DNA of 42,292 bases, taken from positions 1 to 42,292 of the forward strand of contig ONSU01000034.1 of NCBI GenBank assembly GCA_900320545.1, read 5' to 3'. The notes under the pieces were generated by a model that ran no database searches, was not told the DNA's origin, and saw only the letters and a list, made by a program, of their open reading frames with translations. The translations under genes and the position numbers were made by a program. Shown here piece by piece: positions 31,862 to 42,203 of the stretch. Source of the DNA: an uncultured Bacteroidales bacterium (GTDB taxonomy: Bacteria; Bacteroidota; Bacteroidia; Bacteroidales; UBA932). Positions within the stretch are counted from its first letter, which is position 1; every line of letters begins with the position of its first letter.

Positions 31862-34800
31862 ATGATCTCACCCCTTTCCCAAGCCCAGCTCGGCATCTAT
31901 CTGGCATGCCAGGGATTAAAAGAAAACGAAGGAAATTATCAGATTGCAATGCTGTTCAGATTGCCGGAGGAGATTGACCCGGACCGCCTGAAGCAAGCGT
32001 TGGAAAAGACGCTGCTGGCGCACCCGTACCTGCTTTCCCGCCTGGTGTTGCAGGACGGAGAAGTCCGCGTGGAGACCCCGGATCAGCCGGAGGCGGCCGT
32101 CCCCGTGTTCAAAACCCTCGACAGAAGCACGCTGGGCCGTACCATGCCGCTGGACATAAACAATGCGGAGGGGAAGACGCAGCAGCTCTCGAGGACGGAA
32201 ATTTACGAAACCCCGGAAGGAAATTTTTTTTATTTCGACGCCCACCACATTCTCTTCGACGGGGCGTCCACCCATCTTTTCCTGAAATCCCTGGACGAGG
32301 CGTACACCGGGAAAGAGCTGGAAAAAGAGAAAGTCAGCGGCGCCGACGTCGCCCTCAGGGAGCAGGAACTCCGCGACTCCGAGGCCTTCGGCGAAGCCAG
32401 GGAATGGTATGCCCGGACCTTCGGCCCCGGGGCGGAGACGCAGTCCCGCATCATTCCGGACAAATACGAAGAAGACAGTCCCTATAAGGAACTTTTCCTC
32501 GACCTCGATCTCGACAGGCAGAAGATGCAGGCCGTGACGGAGCGGTACCGCTATGCGGACAGCGTCCTCTTCACGGCCGCGTTCGGCCTCACGCTCGCCG
32601 CCTGGAACGCCGAAGAGAAGGCCTTCTTCACCAGCATATGGAACGGCCGCAAGGGACTTTCCGGCGGCATCGGGATGCAGGTGCACACTATTCCCGTCTA
32701 TGTGGATGCGCCCTCCGGAAGACCCGTTTCGGAAATCCTCGACGCGATGAAAGAGCAGACCCTGGGCATCCGCGCCAGGGGCTTCTACTCCTTCGCCGAC
32801 TGCGCGAAAGACCTGGGGCTCGGAAACGGCATCAATTTCGGCTTCCAGGGACAGTTCGTCGGGGACAAACCCCGGCTGGTCATCGACGGGAAGGTGATCG
32901 AGGGCGAAGACCTCCGGACCAATCCGCCGGGCATCGGCCTCTCCATCGAATTCTTCACGGCCGCGGATGGACCGTACAAAATGCGGATCTGGTACCGGAG
33001 CGGGCTGTATTCCGAGTCCCTTCTCCGCAGTTTCGCAGACAGTTACACCGCCACGGTGCTGTCCCTCGCGACAGCGGAGACCGTCAGGGACCTGCAGTAT
33101 GCCAATGCCGCGCAGCTCAAGCTCCTGGACACCTTCCAGGGGGAAGAAAATCCTTCGGATCCCGCAACGACCATCCTCGACCTTTTCAAGAAGCAGAATC
33201 CCGGGAATACGGCGATCGTTTACAGAGACACCCGCCTCACATACGGAGAAGTGGACGAACTGTCGGACCGCCTGGCCGCCTGGATCGAAAAGAATGTCGG
33301 CCCCGGGAAGGTGGTATCCATCATGCTGGGACGCAACGAGTACAATATGATCGCTCCGCTCGGCGCCGTCAAGGCCGGATGCGCCTATCAGCCCCTGGAT
33401 CCGTCCTATCCGGCAGACCGCCTGCAGTTTATGGTGCAGGACGCGCAGAGCGCCCTTCTCATCGCCGACGACGGCCTGGACGTGGAGGGTTTCGAGGGTC
33501 CCCGGCTTCGCACGGCCGACATTCCCGGCCTCCCGCAGGGGCATCCCGAATCCCGGCCCGGGGCGGACGACCTCTTCGTTCTCCTCTACACTTCCGGCAC
33601 CACCGGCACGCCCAAGGGCTGTATGCTGCCGCACCGGAGCGTCGCGCTTTTTTCGCAGCTCAACGCGGCGATCCTGGGCCTGGACGGCGACAGCCGGATG
33701 ACGGCCTACGCCAGTTTCGGTTTCGACGCCTTCGTGAGCGACCTTTTCACGGCCCTTTCCAGCGGCGCCGCCCTTTACATTATCCCGGAAGAGCTCCGGC
33801 TCGACCTCCCCGCCCTGCACGCCTATTTCGAGGAGAACGGCATCACTCACTCCTTTATGACCACCCAGGTGGCCACCCAGTTCGCGCTGAATTTCCCGGC
33901 CTGCAAAGGACTCAGGGCCCTGTACACCGGCGGAGAGAAACTGTCCTCCTTCCCGCTCCCCGAGTACCGTCTGTTCAACTGCTACGGTCCCACGGAGAGC
34001 CTCGCGTACGTCATTTATAAAGAGGTAAAGGAAGAGGCGGAAATTCCTATCGGGCGCCCCGTTCCCGGCATCCACGCCTACATCGTGGCAAAGGGCGGCC
34101 AGCGCCTCCCCGTCGGCGCGGCCGGCGAACTCCTGGAGGCGGGCGAACAGGTGGGCGACGGCTATCTGGGCCGTCCCGACAAGACGGCGGAAGTATTCTC
34201 CGACAATCCGTACGAAAGCGATCCGGCCTATCGGCGGATGTACCGTACCGGCGACGTCGTCCGCTACCGCGTCGACGGTGACATCGAATATATCGGCCGG
34301 AAAGATTCCCAGGTGAAGATCCGCGGTTTCCGTATCGAACTGAAGGAAGTCGAAAGCGTCATCCGCGAATACGAGGGGATCAGGGACGTGACCGTGCAGG
34401 CCTTCGACGAGAAGGGCGCCGGTGCTGGGAAATTCATCGCGGCCTATATCGTCGCGGACTCCCCTGTCGACATCGCGGCCCTCAACGCCTTTATCGCATC
34501 CCGGAAGCCCCCGTACATGGTGCCTGCCGTCACGATGCAGATCGACGCCATCCCGCTGAACGTCAACCAGAAAGTAGATCGGAAGGCCCTGCCCGAGCCG
34601 GTACGGGAGCAGGCGGCGAAACGGGCCGAAAACGCCCCGCTGAACATCCTGGAAGAGGAAATCGCCGGAATCATCCGCGAGACCGCCCACATCGACGGAT
34701 TCGGCCTTACCGATCCGCTCCTCTACTACGGGCTGAGTTCCCTGAGCGCGCTCCGGCTCGCCACGGAACTGTACAAGAAATATGGTCTGCAGGCCGATAT

Positions 34801-37800
34801 GGCCAGTTTCGCGCAGACCGCCACCCTCCAGACCATCGAGAACGAAGTCCTGAAAGTCCTGATGGCGGGCGACAGGAAGTCATCGGGTGCGGAGACCGCG
34901 GCGGCGGACAACGAGCCGCGGGAACTCTCCTTCCAGCAGGAGGGCGTATATTACGACTGCATGAAGGCCCCGGAAGAGACGCAGTACAACATTCCGACGC
35001 TGTGGCGCTTCCCCTCCGGGACACAGGCGGAGACGGTCAGGGATGCGGTACTCGACGTGCTGAAGGCCCATCCCGGGCTCAACGTGTATTTCGAGCAGCG
35101 CGAGGGGAAGGTCTTTGCGGTTCCCGCGGATGTCACCCCGTCCGTCAGCATCGAGAAGACGGAGGACCGCATCACCGCAGAATCGTACAAAGACGCGTTC
35201 GTCAAGCCCTTCAACCTGCAGGAAGCGCCCCTGTACCGGCTAAAGGTGCTCGATACGCCGGAAGGCGTCGTCCTCGCCGCCGACTTCCATCACCTGATCT
35301 TCGACGGCGCTTCCTACGATATCTTCGGGAAAGAACTTTCCGCAGCGCTCCGGGGAGAAAAACCGGAGCGGGAATCCTATTCCTATTCCCAATACGTGCT
35401 CGACCAGCAGGCCGGCGTGGACACCCCGGAATTCCAGGAGGCGGGCGCCTTCTTCGGGAAGCAGCTGGAGGCGCTGGAAGAGGCGTCGGAGATCCTTCCG
35501 GATCTTCCCCTGCAGCAAGGCAAGGGCCGGGAACTCTATGTCCAGGAAGCGGTCGGCGCCGAGGTCGCGCCGCGGTGCAAGGAGCTCGGGATCACTCCCG
35601 CAAGTTTCTTCCTTTCAGCTACTTACCTGGCCGTATCCGCCTTTGCGGGAAGGCCGGACGTGTACATCTGCACCGTATCCGGCGGGCGCAGCAATCTCAG
35701 GACTTCCGGGACGCTGGGTATGTTCGTCAATACCCTGGCGCTCCACGGCAATGCGGCGCCCGCGCCCGTCGACGAATTCCTGAAAAAGGTCCACGCCGAT
35801 TTCGCCGAAACGTTGCGACATGAGAATTATCCTTTCTCGAAGGTGGCGGCGGCGTACGGCTTCCAGCCCCGGATCATGCTGGCCTATGAAGTGGGCGTCG
35901 TCGAGAAAGATTCCGGAGTGCAAAGCGAAGTGCTGGAAACGGGCTATCCCAAGTTCCCCGTCAGCATCTTTGTCGACGGAGAAGAGGGTCACGAGCGCTT
36001 TGTGGTGGCTTATGACAGCCACCTGTACAGCCGGGAGATCATGCAGCGGTTCGCCCAGACGCTCGCCTGCGTGGTCAAGGGCCTGCTGAGGGCCGGCAAT
36101 ACAGCCGAGGTTCCCTTCGTGGACGCCCCCCGGATCGACGAACTCGACGGATTCAACCATTACAAGGCCCCGCTGAATCCCGACGAAAGCATCGTCTCCC
36201 TCTTCCGGAAACAGGCGGCGGCCACACCCGGCAATGCAGCCGTTTCCGCTGGCGGCAAGACCTGGTCCTATGAAGAGACCGACCGCCTTACCGACCGTCT
36301 GGCGGCCTATATCGCTTCTCTGGGCCTTGGCCGGGAGAACGTCGTTTCGGTGCTGATCGGACGCAATGAATGGATGGCGCTCGCCTCGCTGGGCATCCTC
36401 AAGGCCGGCTGCGCCTACCAGCCGCTGGATCCTTCCTATCCCGCGGAACGCCTCGGCTTCATGATCAAGGATGCCGCGGCAGGCCTGCTGATCGCCGACG
36501 AAGACCTGACCGGCCTTCTGCCGGACTATGCCGGTCCCGTGCTCAAGACCTCCGACATCGGGGCGCTGCCTCAGGGGAAATGCCCGGAGGGACCCGCACC
36601 CGAAGACCTGTTCATCCTCCTGTATACTTCCGGTTCCACGGGCGTTCCCAAGGGCGTGATGCTGGAGCACCGCAACCTCGTCAATTTCTGCGGCTGGTAC
36701 CGCAGCTATTACGGCCTCAAGGCCGGTGACAAGGTCGCCGCTTATGCCAGTTACGGCTTCGACGCCTGCATGATGGATATGTATCCCGCGCTTACGACGG
36801 GCGCCTGCGTGTACATTATTCCGGAAGACACCCGCCACGATATGATGGCGCTGGACCGCTTCATCACCGAAAACGGCATCACGCACAGTTTCATGACCAC
36901 GCAGGTGGGCGTGATGTTCGAGAAGAATTTCCCCGACAACATGAGTCTCCGGCACCTTTCCGTGGGCGGAGAAAAACTCGTGTCCGTCGATCCCCCGTCC
37001 TATGCCTTCCACAACGGCTACGGCCCCACGGAATGCACCATTTTCTCCACCGTCTTCGAGGTGAAGCGGCGGGAAGACAACATCCCCATCGGCCATCCGC
37101 TCGACAATGTATATCTGTATGTCGTCGACGCGCAGGGCCGCCGGCTTCCCGTCGGGGCGCCCGGCGAGCTGATCATCGCCGGAGAAGGCGTCGGCAGAGG
37201 GTATCTCAATCAGCCGGAAAAGACGGCGGAGGCATTCATCGACAATCCTTTCATCAAGGGAATGCGCGCCTATCGATCCGGAGACATCGTCCGCTACAGG
37301 GAGGACGGAAACATCGAATTCGTCGGCCGCCGCGACTCCCAGGTCAAGATCCGCGGATTCCGGATCGAACTCAAGGAGGTGGAAACCGTCCTGCGGGAAA
37401 TGCCCCTCGTGAAGGACGTTACCGTGCAGGCATTCGACAAGCCCTCCGGCGGCAAGTTCCTGGCGGCGTATGTGGTGTACGACGGCACACTTGACGCGAA
37501 AGAGGTCGCCGCGTTCATCCGCGAACGCAAGCCGCCCTATATGGTTCCGGAAAGCATCACCCAGCTCGACCGCATCCCGCTGAACGTCAACCAGAAAGTC
37601 GACCGGAAGGCCCTGCCCGCCCCGGTTCCGCGCTCCGGCGAGGACTATGTCGCCCCGGAGACGCCCGTGGAGAAGACGCTGTGCGAAATTTTCGCCGCCG
37701 TGCTCGAAATGGACAAGGTAAGCGTCACCGACAATTTCTTCGACCTCGGCGGTACTTCGCTGGTCGTCACGAACGTGCTGGTGGCGGCCCAGAAGGCCGG

Positions 37801-39103
37801 CCTCAATTTCGCCTACGCCGATGTGTTCTCGCATCCCACCGCGCGGAGTCTCGCGGCCTTCCTGGGCGGAGGGGCGGAAACGGGCGCGAACGAGGAAAGC
37901 ATCGAGGACTACGACTATTCCGCCATTGACAAACTCCTGTCCGGAAACACCCTGGAAGCATACCTGCAGGGAGAACCGCAGCCCCTTGGCCAGAACATCC
38001 TCCTGACCGGCGTCACGGGATTCCTGGGCATCCACATCCTAAGGGAGATGATCAGCAACACGCCCGAGGATACCATCCTCTGGTGCCTTGTGCGCGGGCA
38101 TAAGGACCGTTCCGCCCTAGACAATCTCAAGGCGATGGTGGCGTACTACTTCCCGGAGGGTTTCACCGAGCCGGAATGGAAACGGATCCGCATCGTCCAG
38201 GGAGACATCACCGGGATGTCCGCCTTCCAGGCGATGGCCGCCTCCGGCACGCCGGTCGACCTCGTGATCAACAGCGCCGCCAACGTGAAGCATTTCTCGA
38301 AGGGGACCGATATCGAAGAGGTAAACTACGGCGGCGTCAAGAACATTGTCGCATTCTGCGAAATGTGCGGCGCGCGGCTGGTGCAGATTTCGACCGAGAG
38401 CGTGGGCGGAACCACCAAGGGATTCCGTCCCGCCGTCTTCAACGAGCAGCACCTTTACTTCGGCCAGCAGACCGGCAATCAGTACGTCCACTCCAAGTTC
38501 CTGGCGGAACGTTACATCCTGGAGCACATCACGAAGGGGACGCTCAACGCCAAGATCCTCCGGGCCGGCAACCTTTCGCCCCGGTCTTCCGATGGTGAAT
38601 TCCAGAAGAACATGACCACGAACGCCGCGATGGGTCGACTCCGGGCCTGCAAACTGCTGGGAGTCGTGCCGTATATGAGCGCGACCGCCCGCGTGGAACT
38701 GACCCCGATCGACGAAGCGGCCCGTGCGGTCCGCCTGCTGAGCGCAACGCCCAGGGAGAACTGCGTCCTGCACATCTCCAACAACCACCTCATCCCAATG
38801 GAAGACGTGATGGGACGACTCTCGCTGGTGGACGGAAAACCCCTTCGCTACGTGGAAGCGGACGAATTCTCCGTGATTCTCGCCAAAGCGATGGAAGACC
38901 CCGCCCTCGCCCCCTGCCTCTCCCCTCTCATCGCCTACAACCAGGCGCCGGGGAAAGATCCGGAGGTCGTCAACTGGCCCTCCACCAGTTTCACCGTTCA
39001 GATCCTCCTCCGCAACGGCTTCCACTGGTGTCCCACTTCCGCCGACTACCTCGACCAGATGTTCGAGCAGCTGCGGGAACTGCATTTCTTCGAGGTGGAC
39101 TGA
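31862..39103 (+). CDS. Two-module non-ribosomal peptide synthetase with terminal reductase (C-A-T-C-A-T-R)
   Basis: A 2,413-residue assembly line. C1 (about 1-425) has active-site HHILFDG at 128-134. A1 (about 440-925) has YTSGTTGTPKG at 576-586 and catalytic K904. T1 has its phosphopantetheine serine probably at S960 in the unusual YYGLSSLSAL. C2 (about 1030-1440) has HHLIFDG at 1143-1149. A2 has YTSGSTGVPKG at 1588-1598 and K1912. T2 has LGGTSL with S1966. The reductase R has the NADPH motif TGVTGFLG at 2049-2056 and Y2208/K2212. C1 has no carrier before it, so it is probably a lipoinitiation (starter) domain. R should release the dipeptide as an aldehyde, which may stay linear or cyclise. 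Aligning by eye to GrsA gives pocket residues DASFYGCAY (A1) and DAMFSGGIF (A2), plus Lys; I cannot name the amino acids. No phosphopantetheinyl transferase lies in the window. Confidence 0.95.
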   Translation: MISPLSQAQLGIYLACQGLKENEGNYQIAMLFRLPEEIDPDRLKQALEKTLLAHPYLLSRLVLQDGEVRVETPDQPEAAVPVFKTLDRSTLGRTMPLDINNAEGKTQQLSRTEIYETPEGNFFYFDAHHILFDGASTHLFLKSLDEAYTGKELEKEKVSGADVALREQELRDSEAFGEAREWYARTFGPGAETQSRIIPDKYEEDSPYKELFLDLDLDRQKMQAVTERYRYADSVLFTAAFGLTLAAWNAEEKAFFTSIWNGRKGLSGGIGMQVHTIPVYVDAPSGRPVSEILDAMKEQTLGIRARGFYSFADCAKDLGLGNGINFGFQGQFVGDKPRLVIDGKVIEGEDLRTNPPGIGLSIEFFTAADGPYKMRIWYRSGLYSESLLRSFADSYTATVLSLATAETVRDLQYANAAQLKLLDTFQGEENPSDPATTILDLFKKQNPGNTAIVYRDTRLTYGEVDELSDRLAAWIEKNVGPGKVVSIMLGRNEYNMIAPLGAVKAGCAYQPLDPSYPADRLQFMVQDAQSALLIADDGLDVEGFEGPRLRTADIPGLPQGHPESRPGADDLFVLLYTSGTTGTPKGCMLPHRSVALFSQLNAAILGLDGDSRMTAYASFGFDAFVSDLFTALSSGAALYIIPEELRLDLPALHAYFEENGITHSFMTTQVATQFALNFPACKGLRALYTGGEKLSSFPLPEYRLFNCYGPTESLAYVIYKEVKEEAEIPIGRPVPGIHAYIVAKGGQRLPVGAAGELLEAGEQVGDGYLGRPDKTAEVFSDNPYESDPAYRRMYRTGDVVRYRVDGDIEYIGRKDSQVKIRGFRIELKEVESVIREYEGIRDVTVQAFDEKGAGAGKFIAAYIVADSPVDIAALNAFIASRKPPYMVPAVTMQIDAIPLNVNQKVDRKALPEPVREQAAKRAENAPLNILEEEIAGIIRETAHIDGFGLTDPLLYYGLSSLSALRLATELYKKYGLQADMASFAQTATLQTIENEVLKVLMAGDRKSSGAETAAADNEPRELSFQQEGVYYDCMKAPEETQYNIPTLWRFPSGTQAETVRDAVLDVLKAHPGLNVYFEQREGKVFAVPADVTPSVSIEKTEDRITAESYKDAFVKPFNLQEAPLYRLKVLDTPEGVVLAADFHHLIFDGASYDIFGKELSAALRGEKPERESYSYSQYVLDQQAGVDTPEFQEAGAFFGKQLEALEEASEILPDLPLQQGKGRELYVQEAVGAEVAPRCKELGITPASFFLSATYLAVSAFAGRPDVYICTVSGGRSNLRTSGTLGMFVNTLALHGNAAPAPVDEFLKKVHADFAETLRHENYPFSKVAAAYGFQPRIMLAYEVGVVEKDSGVQSEVLETGYPKFPVSIFVDGEEGHERFVVAYDSHLYSREIMQRFAQTLACVVKGLLRAGNTAEVPFVDAPRIDELDGFNHYKAPLNPDESIVSLFRKQAAATPGNAAVSAGGKTWSYEETDRLTDRLAAYIASLGLGRENVVSVLIGRNEWMALASLGILKAGCAYQPLDPSYPAERLGFMIKDAAAGLLIADEDLTGLLPDYAGPVLKTSDIGALPQGKCPEGPAPEDLFILLYTSGSTGVPKGVMLEHRNLVNFCGWYRSYYGLKAGDKVAAYASYGFDACMMDMYPALTTGACVYIIPEDTRHDMMALDRFITENGITHSFMTTQVGVMFEKNFPDNMSLRHLSVGGEKLVSVDPPSYAFHNGYGPTECTIFSTVFEVKRREDNIPIGHPLDNVYLYVVDAQGRRLPVGAPGELIIAGEGVGRGYLNQPEKTAEAFIDNPFIKGMRAYRSGDIVRYREDGNIEFVGRRDSQVKIRGFRIELKEVETVLREMPLVKDVTVQAFDKPSGGKFLAAYVVYDGTLDAKEVAAFIRERKPPYMVPESITQLDRIPLNVNQKVDRKALPAPVPRSGEDYVAPETPVEKTLCEIFAAVLEMDKVSVTDNFFDLGGTSLVVTNVLVAAQKAGLNFAYADVFSHPTARSLAAFLGGGAETGANEESIEDYDYSAIDKLLSGNTLEAYLQGEPQPLGQNILLTGVTGFLGIHILREMISNTPEDTILWCLVRGHKDRSALDNLKAMVAYYFPEGFTEPEWKRIRIVQGDITGMSAFQAMAASGTPVDLVINSAANVKHFSKGTDIEEVNYGGVKNIVAFCEMCGARLVQISTESVGGTTKGFRPAVFNEQHLYFGQQTGNQYVHSKFLAERYILEHITKGTLNAKILRAGNLSPRSSDGEFQKNMTTNAAMGRLRACKLLGVVPYMSATARVELTPIDEAARAVRLLSATPRENCVLHISNNHLIPMEDVMGRLSLVDGKPLRYVEADEFSVILAKAMEDPALAPCLSPLIAYNQAPGKDPEVVNWPSTSFTVQILLRNGFHWCPTSADYLDQMFEQLRELHFFEVD

Positions 39104-39104
39104 T

Positions 39105-40229
39105 ATGCGCTGTCGCCTGCTGCCCATACTGACCATCTTGTCGCTGGCGGCCTGCCAAGGCCTTCAGTCGGGCAGCGGGGACTTCGTCGCACCCAAAATC
39201 GAGAGCGCCGACGCCTCGTTCAACGTCTGGGGCATCGTTCTGCAATGCCATGTCGATATCCCCCGGGTGGACCGGTGCGGTTTCCTGGTCGGCCCTGTCG
39301 GAGAAACCAAGTCGGACTATCCCGCCGTCCTTTCGGGGAATACTTTCTCCGTCACCTTGCACGACCTTGCGCCCGAGCGGACCTATGAATGGGAAGGATA
39401 TATCGAAGCCGGGAAGCAGAGGATCCTCTCGAAAAGCGCCACCTTCAAGACGCCGGGGCCGCCCCCGGCGGATTATGTCAACTGTTCCTTCAAGGACTAC
39501 ATCCCGCAGTACGACCTGAACGAAGACGGATATCTCTCCGAAACGGAGCTCTCCTCCATCACGACGCTGACGGTTCCGACCGACCACCTGCAGGACATGA
39601 AAGGGCTGGAGTATTGCGTCAACCTGGAAAGCCTTACCTGTACGGGTTCCCCCGGCGGACTGACGTGGCTGGACGTGACGATGCTTCCCCGTCTGACCTA
39701 TCTCAACTGTGACGGAAACAAATTCGGAATAGTCAGTGGAGACGAAATCAGCGATGAAGGCCTGATGCTGGTCAAATATAATTCCTATGTAATAACGGAA
39801 TCCCATCTTCAGACACTCAGCTGCAATAATGCCGGGCTCCGGAAGTTCTATGTCGGCTATGCCTGCGAGCTCCGGGATGTCTCCATTTCCGGCAACCAGA
39901 TTACATATCTGGATCTGATGTCCGCCTATTCACGTATCGAGAAACTGGACTGCAGCGACAATCTCCTGACCGACATCAATCTCGAGATCTCCCCCCTGAA
40001 GGAACTGGACTGCAGCCGCAACCGGCTGAAAAGCCTGCGGATCAGTGAATTCCAGCATCTGACGATGCTAAAGTGCGCTCCGATGAATGACGAGAAAGGC
40101 AACAACCTGCTCGAAGTTCTCTATCTGCCGAAGGGGACGCACATCCCTCACATCACGGAGAACCGGAGCGAAGAATACATTCCTGCCGAAACCCGGATTG
40201 AATTCTACGACACCATCTGGTCTAATTGA
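39105..40229 (+). CDS. Leucine-rich-repeat lipoprotein coupled to the NRPS
   Basis: A 374-residue surface lipoprotein. The signal peptide has lipobox LAAC (C17). A fibronectin-type-III-like domain (about 28-117) ends in ATFKTP, followed by an EF-hand or dockerin-like calcium loop (DLNEDGYLSETEL, 137-149). Cys-containing leucine-rich repeats of the BspA type (about 165-345) follow, such as LDCSDNLLTDINL and LDCSRNRLKSL. ATG comes one base after the NRPS stop, so cotranscription is likely, but no catalytic domain links it to peptide synthesis. The DNA near 39710-39980 is visibly lower in GC than its neighbours. The stop overlaps the convergent kinase gene by 8 bases. Confidence 0.82.
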   Translation: MRCRLLPILTILSLAACQGLQSGSGDFVAPKIESADASFNVWGIVLQCHVDIPRVDRCGFLVGPVGETKSDYPAVLSGNTFSVTLHDLAPERTYEWEGYIEAGKQRILSKSATFKTPGPPPADYVNCSFKDYIPQYDLNEDGYLSETELSSITTLTVPTDHLQDMKGLEYCVNLESLTCTGSPGGLTWLDVTMLPRLTYLNCDGNKFGIVSGDEISDEGLMLVKYNSYVITESHLQTLSCNNAGLRKFYVGYACELRDVSISGNQITYLDLMSAYSRIEKLDCSDNLLTDINLEISPLKELDCSRNRLKSLRISEFQHLTMLKCAPMNDEKGNNLLEVLYLPKGTHIPHITENRSEEYIPAETRIEFYDTIWSN

Positions 40230-41277
40230 ACAGCTCGGTCGCCTGGTGGAAGATCTCATCGACCACGCCGGAGTCGACCCGGGAAGGGCTTGGCGCGGGT
40301 TTTTCGGGCCGGGGTGCGACAGGTTTTTCAGGCCTGGTGGCAGAGGGCTTTTGCGGGGACGCGGGAGCGGACGGAACGGGAACGGGGACCTCTTGCAGAA
40401 GGATGACCGTATCTCGCTGCGGCGCGGGCGCCCCGGCCTGCGAATCCGCATCCCGCTTTTGAAGGAAAAAGCTCAACGCCAATAAAATAACGAAAAGAAC
40501 GATCCACAGCATCCAGCCCCTGCGCTTATGTATCGCATCCCTGACCTCCGAGACGGAGGCATAGCGGGCGGAAGGGTTCTCGGCACAGCACCGACGTACC
40601 ACGGAGCGGTGGCGCCTTCCCCCGGTGATCAGGCCGATCAGCACGCCGAGCGACCAGATTTCGCTGCGGATATCCGCATCCCGGCCGTTCAGCACCTCCG
40701 GTGCCGTGAAACTCCGCGTTCCGGCAGGGGTTTTGAGCATCGAGAATTCATCCGAATCCGAGAATCCGAAATCGATCAGTTTGACATTGTTGCCGGAAGC
40801 CGTGAGCATCACGTTCGATGGGGTCAGGTCGCGGTGCAGAATCTGCCGCGAATGCAGGAATGACAGGGCCTCGCAGAGTTCTTCGATAATGCGGTCTCCC
40901 TCCGCCCGGCTGAAGGCGCTTTTTTTCAAGGCCTGCCCAAGGGTACGCCCGTGCACCCATTCCATCTCGATGCAGTTTCCCAGATCGTCGAGCTGCGTGA
41001 AAGAATAATAACGGCAGATATTGGGATGATCCAGCGAACTGCCGATCTCGAACTCCTTCCGGAGCAGGCCTACGTAGAGAGCGTCGCCGCGGTACTCTTC
41101 CTTAAGGCATTTAAGCACACGGAATTTTCCTTGCCGCTCTATGCGAAAGAGGCAGAACGCCCCGCCGGAAGAGGTATGGATCAGCATCCGGGAGGAAATC
41201 TCCCCGGATTCCGGTGCTGACGGGTTCGAAAAAAAGCCGGAAGTCTCTTCCACGTTCAGTAAATCCCTAATATTCAC
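40222..41277 (-). CDS. Membrane-anchored Ser/Thr protein kinase
   Basis: Hanks-type kinase of 351 residues. The N-lobe has K56 (VLKCLK) and E75. The catalytic loop HRDLTPSNV has D150 and N155, DFG is at 169-171 and APE at 192-194. The glycine loop is degenerate, and the aspartate usual in the D-WSLG motif is a glutamate (E206). The C-lobe is short and ends at about 250. One transmembrane helix (about 254-272) is followed by a Pro/Lys/Ser-rich tail (about 283-335), probably outside the cytoplasm. The start is uncertain: GTG at 41277 lies one base from a TAAATTTG box; ATG at 41187 is the alternative and would begin at the glycine loop. It diverges from the barrel gene. Confidence 0.87.
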   Translation of the reverse strand: MNIRDLLNVEETSGFFSNPSAPESGEISSRMLIHTSSGGAFCLFRIERQGKFRVLKCLKEEYRGDALYVGLLRKEFEIGSSLDHPNICRYYSFTQLDDLGNCIEMEWVHGRTLGQALKKSAFSRAEGDRIIEELCEALSFLHSRQILHRDLTPSNVMLTASGNNVKLIDFGFSDSDEFSMLKTPAGTRSFTAPEVLNGRDADIRSEIWSLGVLIGLITGGRRHRSVVRRCCAENPSARYASVSEVRDAIHKRRGWMLWIVLFVILLALSFFLQKRDADSQAGAPAPQRDTVILLQEVPVPVPSAPASPQKPSATRPEKPVAPRPEKPAPSPSRVDSGVVDEIFHQATELFN

Positions 41278-41278
41278 T

Positions 41279-41307
41279 CAAATTTACGAATTATTTTGCT
41301 ATTTTTG
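41279..41307. promoter_or_regulatory. Divergent candidate -7 boxes between the kinase and barrel genes
   Basis: TAAATTTG on the minus strand (41286-41279) and TATTTTTG on the plus strand (41300-41307) both match TAnnTTTG. They lie 1 and 5 bases from the respective start codons in a 35-base intergenic space. No clear -33 elements are seen. If used, both transcripts would be nearly leaderless. Confidence 0.35.
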
Positions 41308-41312
41308 TATGA

Positions 41313-42203
41313 ATGGGCACAAGAATTCTCACATACGCGGCGATTCTCATTCTTCTGCTGGGAGAAATCGTCCTCTCTGCGCAGAATGTGCAGGACCTGG
41401 ACGCGGCCCTCGACTACTACGAAGACATCTGCAACCAGTGCTTCGACCTGCGGGCCCGGATGCGGTCCGGCGAGCAGATTGCCGCGGAGGCTGTCACTCC
41501 CCTGCTGGAGCGCCTTACCGGGCTCCGCGAGAGGCTCGGCAGCTCCAAAGGCGAAATGAGCTTCGAGCAATTGCGGCGATTCGAGAGCATCCGGGAGCGC
41601 TATGCCCGCGCCTTCAATCCGACGCTCCTGCCCGGCACCTCCGTTCCGGTCTCGGATGATGTCGCCGCTTCGCTCGATCCGGCCCGCGGCCCGTCCGTCC
41701 CCACTTCTCCGGAGAGCATCGTTGACAGCGGATTCCATTCCCCCTGGTATGTCGGGATTCTCGCCTTTGCCGGATTTCCGTTCTTCGCCCCGGGGCTGAT
41801 GCTGACGGCCGACACCCCTCACTGGGGTCTCTACGCCAAAGGATATGTCGGCGTGCGATGGGTTTCCCCGGCGTATTCCGGCCTTTCGGACGGCACCTCG
41901 GAGCAGGGCACGCTGTGGACGACGGGCAAAGAACGCCGCTCCCGCTTCGGCATATCCGCCGGCGGATCCTGGTTCCCGCTCAAATACCTCGGCATCTACG
42001 CCGGGGCGGGATACGGCCAGGAAAAGATTTACTGGGAAGACACCAATCACGAATGGGTGGCGATAACGGACCTGACCCGGCGCGGAATCCAGGCGGACGC
42101 CGGACTGCTTTTCAGATGGAGGTGGCTGACCGCCTTCGCCGGTGTCACCACCGTCACCTTCCGGACCATCCGGGTCGAAACCGGCCTCGGCGTGCGGTTC
42201 TAG
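41313..42203 (+). CDS. Outer-membrane beta-barrel protein with N-terminal helical region
   Basis: A 296-residue protein with a signal peptide (about 1-23, ending LSAQ), a helical, charged segment (about 26-103), a Pro/Ser-rich linker (about 105-138), and a small barrel (about 140-296) with alternating Gly and aromatic strands and a C-terminal Phe. I do not recognise the family. ATG at 41313 is required because it begins the signal peptide. It is divergent from the Ser/Thr kinase and may be co-regulated with it. The stop overlaps the next convergent gene by 4 bases. Confidence 0.72.
   Translation: MGTRILTYAAILILLLGEIVLSAQNVQDLDAALDYYEDICNQCFDLRARMRSGEQIAAEAVTPLLERLTGLRERLGSSKGEMSFEQLRRFESIRERYARAFNPTLLPGTSVPVSDDVAASLDPARGPSVPTSPESIVDSGFHSPWYVGILAFAGFPFFAPGLMLTADTPHWGLYAKGYVGVRWVSPAYSGLSDGTSEQGTLWTTGKERRSRFGISAGGSWFPLKYLGIYAGAGYGQEKIYWEDTNHEWVAITDLTRRGIQADAGLLFRWRWLTAFAGVTTVTFRTIRVETGLGVRF

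Follow-up and report, generated by a model that had tools for sequence, protein, structure and literature searches.

Gut NRPSs that make dipeptide aldehydes and pyrazinones have been described (Guo et al. 2017; ruminopeptin, R. bromii), and in passages of two papers some of their products are N-acylated (PMC8210680, PMC12327764). The first of these passages, citing Guo 2017, reports an N-acyl tail on gut dipeptide aldehydes, and the second identifies ruminopeptin as a dipeptide aldehyde. With the enzyme analyzed here, these NRPSs share two A-T modules and reductive release. The relatives treated below differ from those of Guo et al. 2017 in that they make up a family within Bacteroidales whose A2 code hardly varies, and the two sets are likened by description, not by sequence. 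AusA/PznA, the aureusimine NRPS (NF047350), has the A-T-C-A-T-R core in common with our enzyme and a similar R domain (4f6c). Unlike it, the NRPS of the window (the whole 42,292-nt stretch of Bacteroidales DNA that was analyzed) has a complete N-terminal condensation domain, C1, with the HHxxxDG motif, carries other pocket codes, and scores 981.7 bits against the curated cut-off of 2500. Among solved structures, the R domain is closest to 6vtj (217.6 bits; residues 2-397 of 399 matched), which we take to be the PCP-R didomain of an archaeal NRPS, that of Methanobrevibacter ruminantium (Deshpande 2021).

The NRPS gene, its domains and its downstream neighbors lie as follows:

31862..39103, forward strand: NRPS gene, C-A-T-C-A-T-R, 2413 aa (ORF scan, Pfam domain order)
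31868..33070, forward strand: C1, N-terminal condensation domain (PF00668, 101.3 bits; AlphaFold2 model, pLDDT 87.2)
32243..32263, forward strand: C1 active-site motif HHILFDG, residues 128-134 (motif alignment)
33191..34168, forward strand: A1 adenylation domain, code DASFYGCAY (profile match and motif alignment)
34658..34840, forward strand: T1 carrier domain, Ser960 in GLSSL (profile match)
34922..36094, forward strand: C2 condensation domain, HHLIFDG, LCL by position (profile match and motif alignment)
36203..37207, forward strand: A2 adenylation domain, code DAMFSGGIF (profile match and motif alignment)
37676..37864, forward strand: T2 carrier domain, Ser1966 in GGTSL (profile match)
38003..38731, forward strand: R, terminal reductase (PF07993, residues 2048-2290), LTGVTGFLG and YVHSK
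39105..40229, forward strand: LRR lipoprotein-like gene, starting 1 base after the NRPS stop
40222-41277, reverse strand: Hanks-type Ser/Thr kinase with a C-terminal hydrophobic stretch and a Pro-rich tail, two genes past the NRPS

The reading frame of the NRPS has an ATG start and 0 internal stops across 2413 aa. Pfam finds in it 2 Condensation, 2 AMP-binding, 2 PP-binding and 1 NAD_binding_4 domains, in the C-A-T-C-A-T-R order that a preliminary description of this DNA had given. That description had also claimed an intact NADPH motif and Y/K pair in the reductase, and both are present: the R domain keeps the glycine motif LTGVTGFLG, and its YVHSK motif supplies Y2208 and K2212 (NAD_binding_4 match of 113.5 bits against a Pfam cut-off of 20.1). 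The gene thus displays two traits of gut R-terminated dipeptide-aldehyde NRPSs, namely, two A-T modules bridged by a single C domain (C2, whose motif HHLIFDG occupies residues 1143-1149) and a terminal reductase with a Rossmann glycine motif and Thr-Tyr-Lys. Within the gene, neither an A domain nor a carrier lies upstream of C1, which was therefore correctly described as having no donor carrier ahead of it. The best NCBIfam model is that of AusA, below its cut-off. The GC content of the gene (∼0.62, with flanks of 0.58-0.61) gives no sign of recent foreign insertion. Judged by its sequence, the NRPS gene is real and intact, beyond chance, and is a further member of the known dipeptide-aldehyde NRPS family; its predicted two-residue assembly and reductive release are well supported and already known from AusA and the published gut NRPSs.

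We suggest that C1 is an LCL-type domain that was left without its loading module and has since come to use an acyl donor, the product being an N-acyl dipeptide aldehyde, and we give this reading a probability of roughly 0.55. The ancestor would have been a longer line with an internal LCL-type domain, which became N-terminal when the loading A-T module was lost. In the present enzyme, A1 and A2 would each load one amino acid, onto T1 and T2, and C2 would couple the two residues. C1 would cap residue 1 with an acyl group that general metabolism supplies as acyl-ACP or acyl-CoA, and R, with NADPH, would reduce the T2 thioester and free the dipeptide aldehyde. The N-acyl cap would block cyclization to a pyrazinone, and the N-acyl dipeptide aldehyde would act as an inhibitor of Cys or Ser proteases. 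The sequence itself shows the order of the domains, their motifs, the descent of C1 and the lack of a donor module, whereas the acyl donor, the residues, the aldehyde as end product and its target are what we infer within this explanation.

Reductive release as a dipeptide aldehyde had been claimed before, and the intact R motifs together with the structural matches of the domain support that prediction: searched against the PDB, its best matches are NRPS reductases, with 6vtj at E 2.7e-63 and AusA-R 4f6c at E 2.6e-25. Four-electron reduction is performed by some NRPS reductases. If R acted in this way the product would be a dipeptide alcohol, and MxaA-R 4u7w does match the R domain, though more weakly (59.6 bits); given that 6vtj and AusA-R are closer matches, and that AusA-R is a two-electron enzyme according to a passage of PMC8210680, we consider the alcohol improbable.

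The pocket codes of the preliminary description, DASFYGCAY and DAMFSGGIF, were both reproduced by motif alignment at nine positions. Across the family the A1 code is the more variable of the two. Of the 36 family rows in which the A2 code is complete, 25 read DAMFSGGIF, four read DCMFTAGIL and seven others differ, so that DAMFSGGIF is standard as an A2 code within this NRPS family. The first A domain of LgrA activates valine. At the nine positions it has D-G-L-Y-I-G-G-I-M (read by eye from the alignment), and the likeness of the A2 code to it suggests a hydrophobic residue, nothing further. Both pockets, A1 as well as A2, would appear to be hydrophobic.

The preliminary description had attributed acylation of residue 1 to a starter-type C1. 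In a FastTree phylogeny of 246 C domains, C1 is placed among the C domains found at the N terminus in related genes (clades of 14 and 18 tips, support 1.0 each). At the next node out, which holds 39 tips (0.935), six internal domains located behind A-T modules join, followed by the gut C2 domains (93 tips, 1.0), and the Starter domains CDA-Cs and RzmA-Cs are found elsewhere with two other domains (0.998). IQ-TREE (LG+C20, quick; 84 rows) recovered a group of 18 N-terminal gut C domains including C1 (82), joined by five internal ones (SH-aLRT 96), within a gut clade of 42 (99) and apart from seven Starters (100); in this tree, the N-terminal gut C domains of two loci (L063, L078) fall on the C2 side, outside the C1 clade. 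Forcing the 18 N-terminal gut and 7 Starter domains together costs 45.7 log units in the AU test, with a p-AU of 0.000486 that is indicative, the groups having been picked after the first tree was seen and some branches being long. The union of C1 with CDA-Cs (4jn3) and RzmA-Cs (7c1k, an R148A mutant chain, which represents RzmA in the trees) is thus rejected, and FastTree, IQ-TREE and the AU test agree in rejecting a classical Starter origin of C1. Among the features of the Starter C subtype (Rausch 2007), C1 has the position as first domain of the line and the HHxxxDG motif, and lacks the placement in the Starter clade. Because it lies outside that clade, acylation cannot be deduced from clade membership. 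The nesting suggests instead that longer lines, such as the A-T-C-A-T-C-A-T-R of L061, lost their loading module, a direction that depends on the E-domain root of the tree.

Structure and profile comparisons were less discriminating. The predicted C1 has a normal C fold (pLDDT 87.2), equally near LCL and Starter structures, with scores of 33.4 for AmbB, 33.1 for LgrA, 33.1 for SrfA-C and 31.8 for RzmA-Cs, the top rows being tied. A C1 profile run against PDB chains scored highest with BacC (168.6), TycC (160.8), PvdL (157.2), LgrA (120.7) and Txo1 (112.4), and lower with SrfA-C (73.8), RzmA-Cs (64.4) and CDA (60.4 for 5du9, 59.7 for 4jn3), a ranking that is suggestive only, since SrfA-C, an LCL, scores near the Starters. 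No clear Starter-like signal was seen in the residues after the HHxxxDG of C1 or in the W182 column. For an LCL C domain, a change of donor has a precedent: a passage of PMC11142918 reports that the C domain of SrfA-C was reprogrammed to a fatty acid donor, and that donor classes go without discernibly different pockets. Conversion of C1 to the use of an acyl donor would thus be feasible.

What stands of the acylation claim is its logic of elimination, which needs the rest of the genome. The assembly, in which the window is contig 49, comprises 2,546,607 bases and is 93.3% complete, so that a gene may be absent from it. A profile search of this 93.3%-complete assembly gave two condensation-domain matches, both inside this NRPS. 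Carrier-domain matches number two in the NRPS, one in a 91-aa ACP frame (contig C25) and three on contig C21, the weakest of the latter at 21.4 bits. Eight AMP-binding matches were obtained, two in the NRPS, two that are pieces of a C21 ligase, and four in other frames of 553-643 aa, each without a carrier match. No A-T loading or donor protein for C1 was thus found among the carrier and AMP-binding matches of this genome. The C21 stretch, with two ketosynthase-type (KS) genes, two carrier proteins, an MMPL exporter, a LolA-like protein, acyltransferases and the AMP-ligase, reads as a probable lipid or aryl-polyene-like cluster. One Sfp-like PPTase gene was found. Among the neighbors of family NRPS genes, which were identified in part, neither a fatty-acyl ligase nor a dedicated ACP is conserved.

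These searches also bear on whether C1 could be an ordinary LCL domain that receives an aminoacyl or peptidyl donor in trans from a second NRPS, so that the aldehyde would contain three or more residues. Apart from N-terminal domains, the closest kin of C1 are indeed internal domains that follow A-T modules, L061 being an example; but the genome yielded neither a further C domain nor an A-T protein, and C1 begins at residue 1-2 of the NRPS, so that a docking domain would have no space ahead of it. We hold this arrangement to be very unlikely. Of the two observations that the preliminary description had set jointly against acylation, one was made, C1 lying outside the Starter clade, and the other was not, no partner NRPS with a donor carrier having been found in the genome.

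We surveyed 299 genomes of the window's family, all counts including its own genome unless stated. A best match of at least 500 bits is present in 44, and 15 (14 others) have a one-piece match extending from residue 4 or earlier to at least residue 2410; the best full-length relatives are 58-61% identical to the NRPS. C1 is whole in most relatives. In three (L044, L046, L048), its first 160-178 residues are gone, motif included, and no displaced N-terminal half was found within their 19.5-kb loci; in four others it is absent (one L033 gene, 11885-17914; L049, 7294-13281; L050; L051). A-T-C-A-T-R is intact in all seven, and C1 can thus be lost while the remaining domains persist. Whole, half and absent forms at times coexist in a single genome (G200, G247, G269). 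In G269, two NRPS genes stand in tandem (L033, 4634-17914), with the C1-less A-T-C-A-T-R directly upstream of a C-A-T-C-A-T-R.

Such losses favor the main alternative to a C1 that acylates, namely, that C1 is catalytically silent and serves as a structural lead-in to A1, in an AusA-like enzyme whose free dipeptide aldehyde would go on to a dihydropyrazinone or pyrazinone. Descent from an internal domain whose donor was lost points the same way, as does the match to the AusA model, whose profile likewise has ∼340 positions ahead of A1. Against a silent C1, the window's catalytic motif is intact, as it is in 47 of the 49 N-terminal C domains (those of the loci up to L098 plus L102, L106, L122, L124 and L140), the exceptions being L122 (first gene) and L078. 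Moreover, C1 is as conserved as C2: across 13 full-length relatives, identity to the window is 44-53% for C1 and 46-51% for C2, with 65-72% for A1 and 70-74% for A2. Purifying selection is also similar in the two domains (dN/dS for the five closest relative pairs: 0.15, 0.04, 0.10, 0.10 and 0.12 for C1; 0.11, 0.14, 0.11, 0.12 and 0.09 for C2), as measured among relatives and not along the window's own branch. A structural role of C1 could account for this selection. Pairs with the half-C1 gene L048 give high values (0.48-0.75), but at dS >1. On balance, a silent C1 seems to us possible but doubtful, and we retain acylation by C1 as the preferred reading.

The same domain order occurs at named loci from Bacteroidales, Prevotellaceae and Clostridia MAGs, the named relatives being mostly rumen or gut MAGs. 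The earlier view that such an NRPS is notable in Bacteroidales is weakened, carriers not being rare there: besides the 44 family genomes, many of the named loci with equal order are from Bacteroidales or Prevotellaceae, and 934 Bacteroidaceae NRPS clusters, with archaeal ones too, have been published from rumen genomes (in a passage of PMC8241843). R-terminated lines, C-A-T-C-A-T-R or longer, also lie on contigs labeled Methanobrevibacter and Methanosphaera (L092, L110). In L062, the R motifs are not recognizable at the aligned positions. A Paenibacillus polymyxa plasmid match was discarded as a free-standing C-A-T-C-A-T-R gene, the annotated gene being longer (158514-172301). The copy closest in sequence where aligned, in G295 (L052, 4742-9591; 63-85% identity by piece), has several broken frames, which suggests recent loss in a sister species.

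Downstream in the window, the LRR lipoprotein-like gene is possibly co-transcribed with the NRPS; no counterpart was found next to the relatives' NRPS genes. A 258-aa ORF (41274-42050, reverse strand) matches nothing in Pfam or NCBIfam and was rejected as a gene; the opposite strand holds a likelier ORF of 296 aa. Elsewhere in the window lies a serine palmitoyltransferase-like gene, which fits Bacteroidota, as do the named relatives.

What is unexpected in the NRPS itself is the descent of C1; a broader surprise comes from the regulatory and export genes around its relatives. We examined 66 loci whose NRPS ends in T-R and whose summed flank is at least 4 kb, the window and truncated loci included. 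Within 5 kb of the NRPS, a SpoIIE domain gene occurs in 36, a STAS gene in 39 and both in 31 (examples within L033-L140 are L035, 15238-16856, and L081, 2109-4313), versus 1 of 32 in each case for control loci with other NRPSs. A Pfam check of examples confirmed SpoIIE in 3/3 and STAS in 2/2. As to background frequency, at least one SpoIIE match occurs in 173 of the 299 genomes of the family, with one to three in most rows listed. A MATE exporter lies within 5 kb in 17 of the 66 loci; these hold 18 MATE genes in that range, 12 of which extend into a C-terminal tail of at least 100 aa. Tailed MATE genes adjoin R-terminated NRPSs in L061, L083, L090, L093, L095 and others, the tail being read as HATPase_c_2 (RsbW-like). 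At L092, the Methanobrevibacter-labeled contig, SpoIIE, STAS and a tailed MATE all stand beside the NRPS. Tested in Pfam, seven tailed MATE proteins (L096 among them, though not among the 12) match HATPase_c_2, four above and three below the cut-off; an eighth, L083, matches MatE alone (E 0.001). These tails suggest an RsbW-like kinase tethered to a MATE exporter. The window's own NRPS has none of these neighbors (SpoIIE, STAS, MATE) in 5 kb of upstream and 3.2 kb of downstream sequence (all that is available downstream), and the single SpoIIE gene of its genome lies on another contig (C18). We found no paper linking SpoIIE, STAS and a nonribosomal peptide, and none on kinase-tailed MATE exporters among the matches listed, which in neither case proves novelty.

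Taking the descent of C1 and this context together, we tentatively raise a broader possibility: the gut C-A-T-C-A-T-R lines may be a second class of lipo-initiating NRPSs, one that arose independently. They would derive from a trimodular aldehyde line that shed its loading A-T module, with the orphaned LCL domain converted to acyl donors and protease-inhibiting N-acyl dipeptide aldehydes as products. In many lineages, synthesis or export might be under a dedicated SpoIIE/STAS partner switch, with the kinase domain fused to the MATE exporter.

For genome mining, a rule that equates an N-terminal C domain with a Starter, and hence with a lipopeptide, could hold in this case only on grounds besides clade membership, if it holds at all. 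The relatives with a whole, half or no C1 make the role of this domain directly testable. If it is made, the capped aldehyde would give a Bacteroidales lineage, with related genes in 44 of the 299 sampled genomes, a stable inhibitor of proteases.
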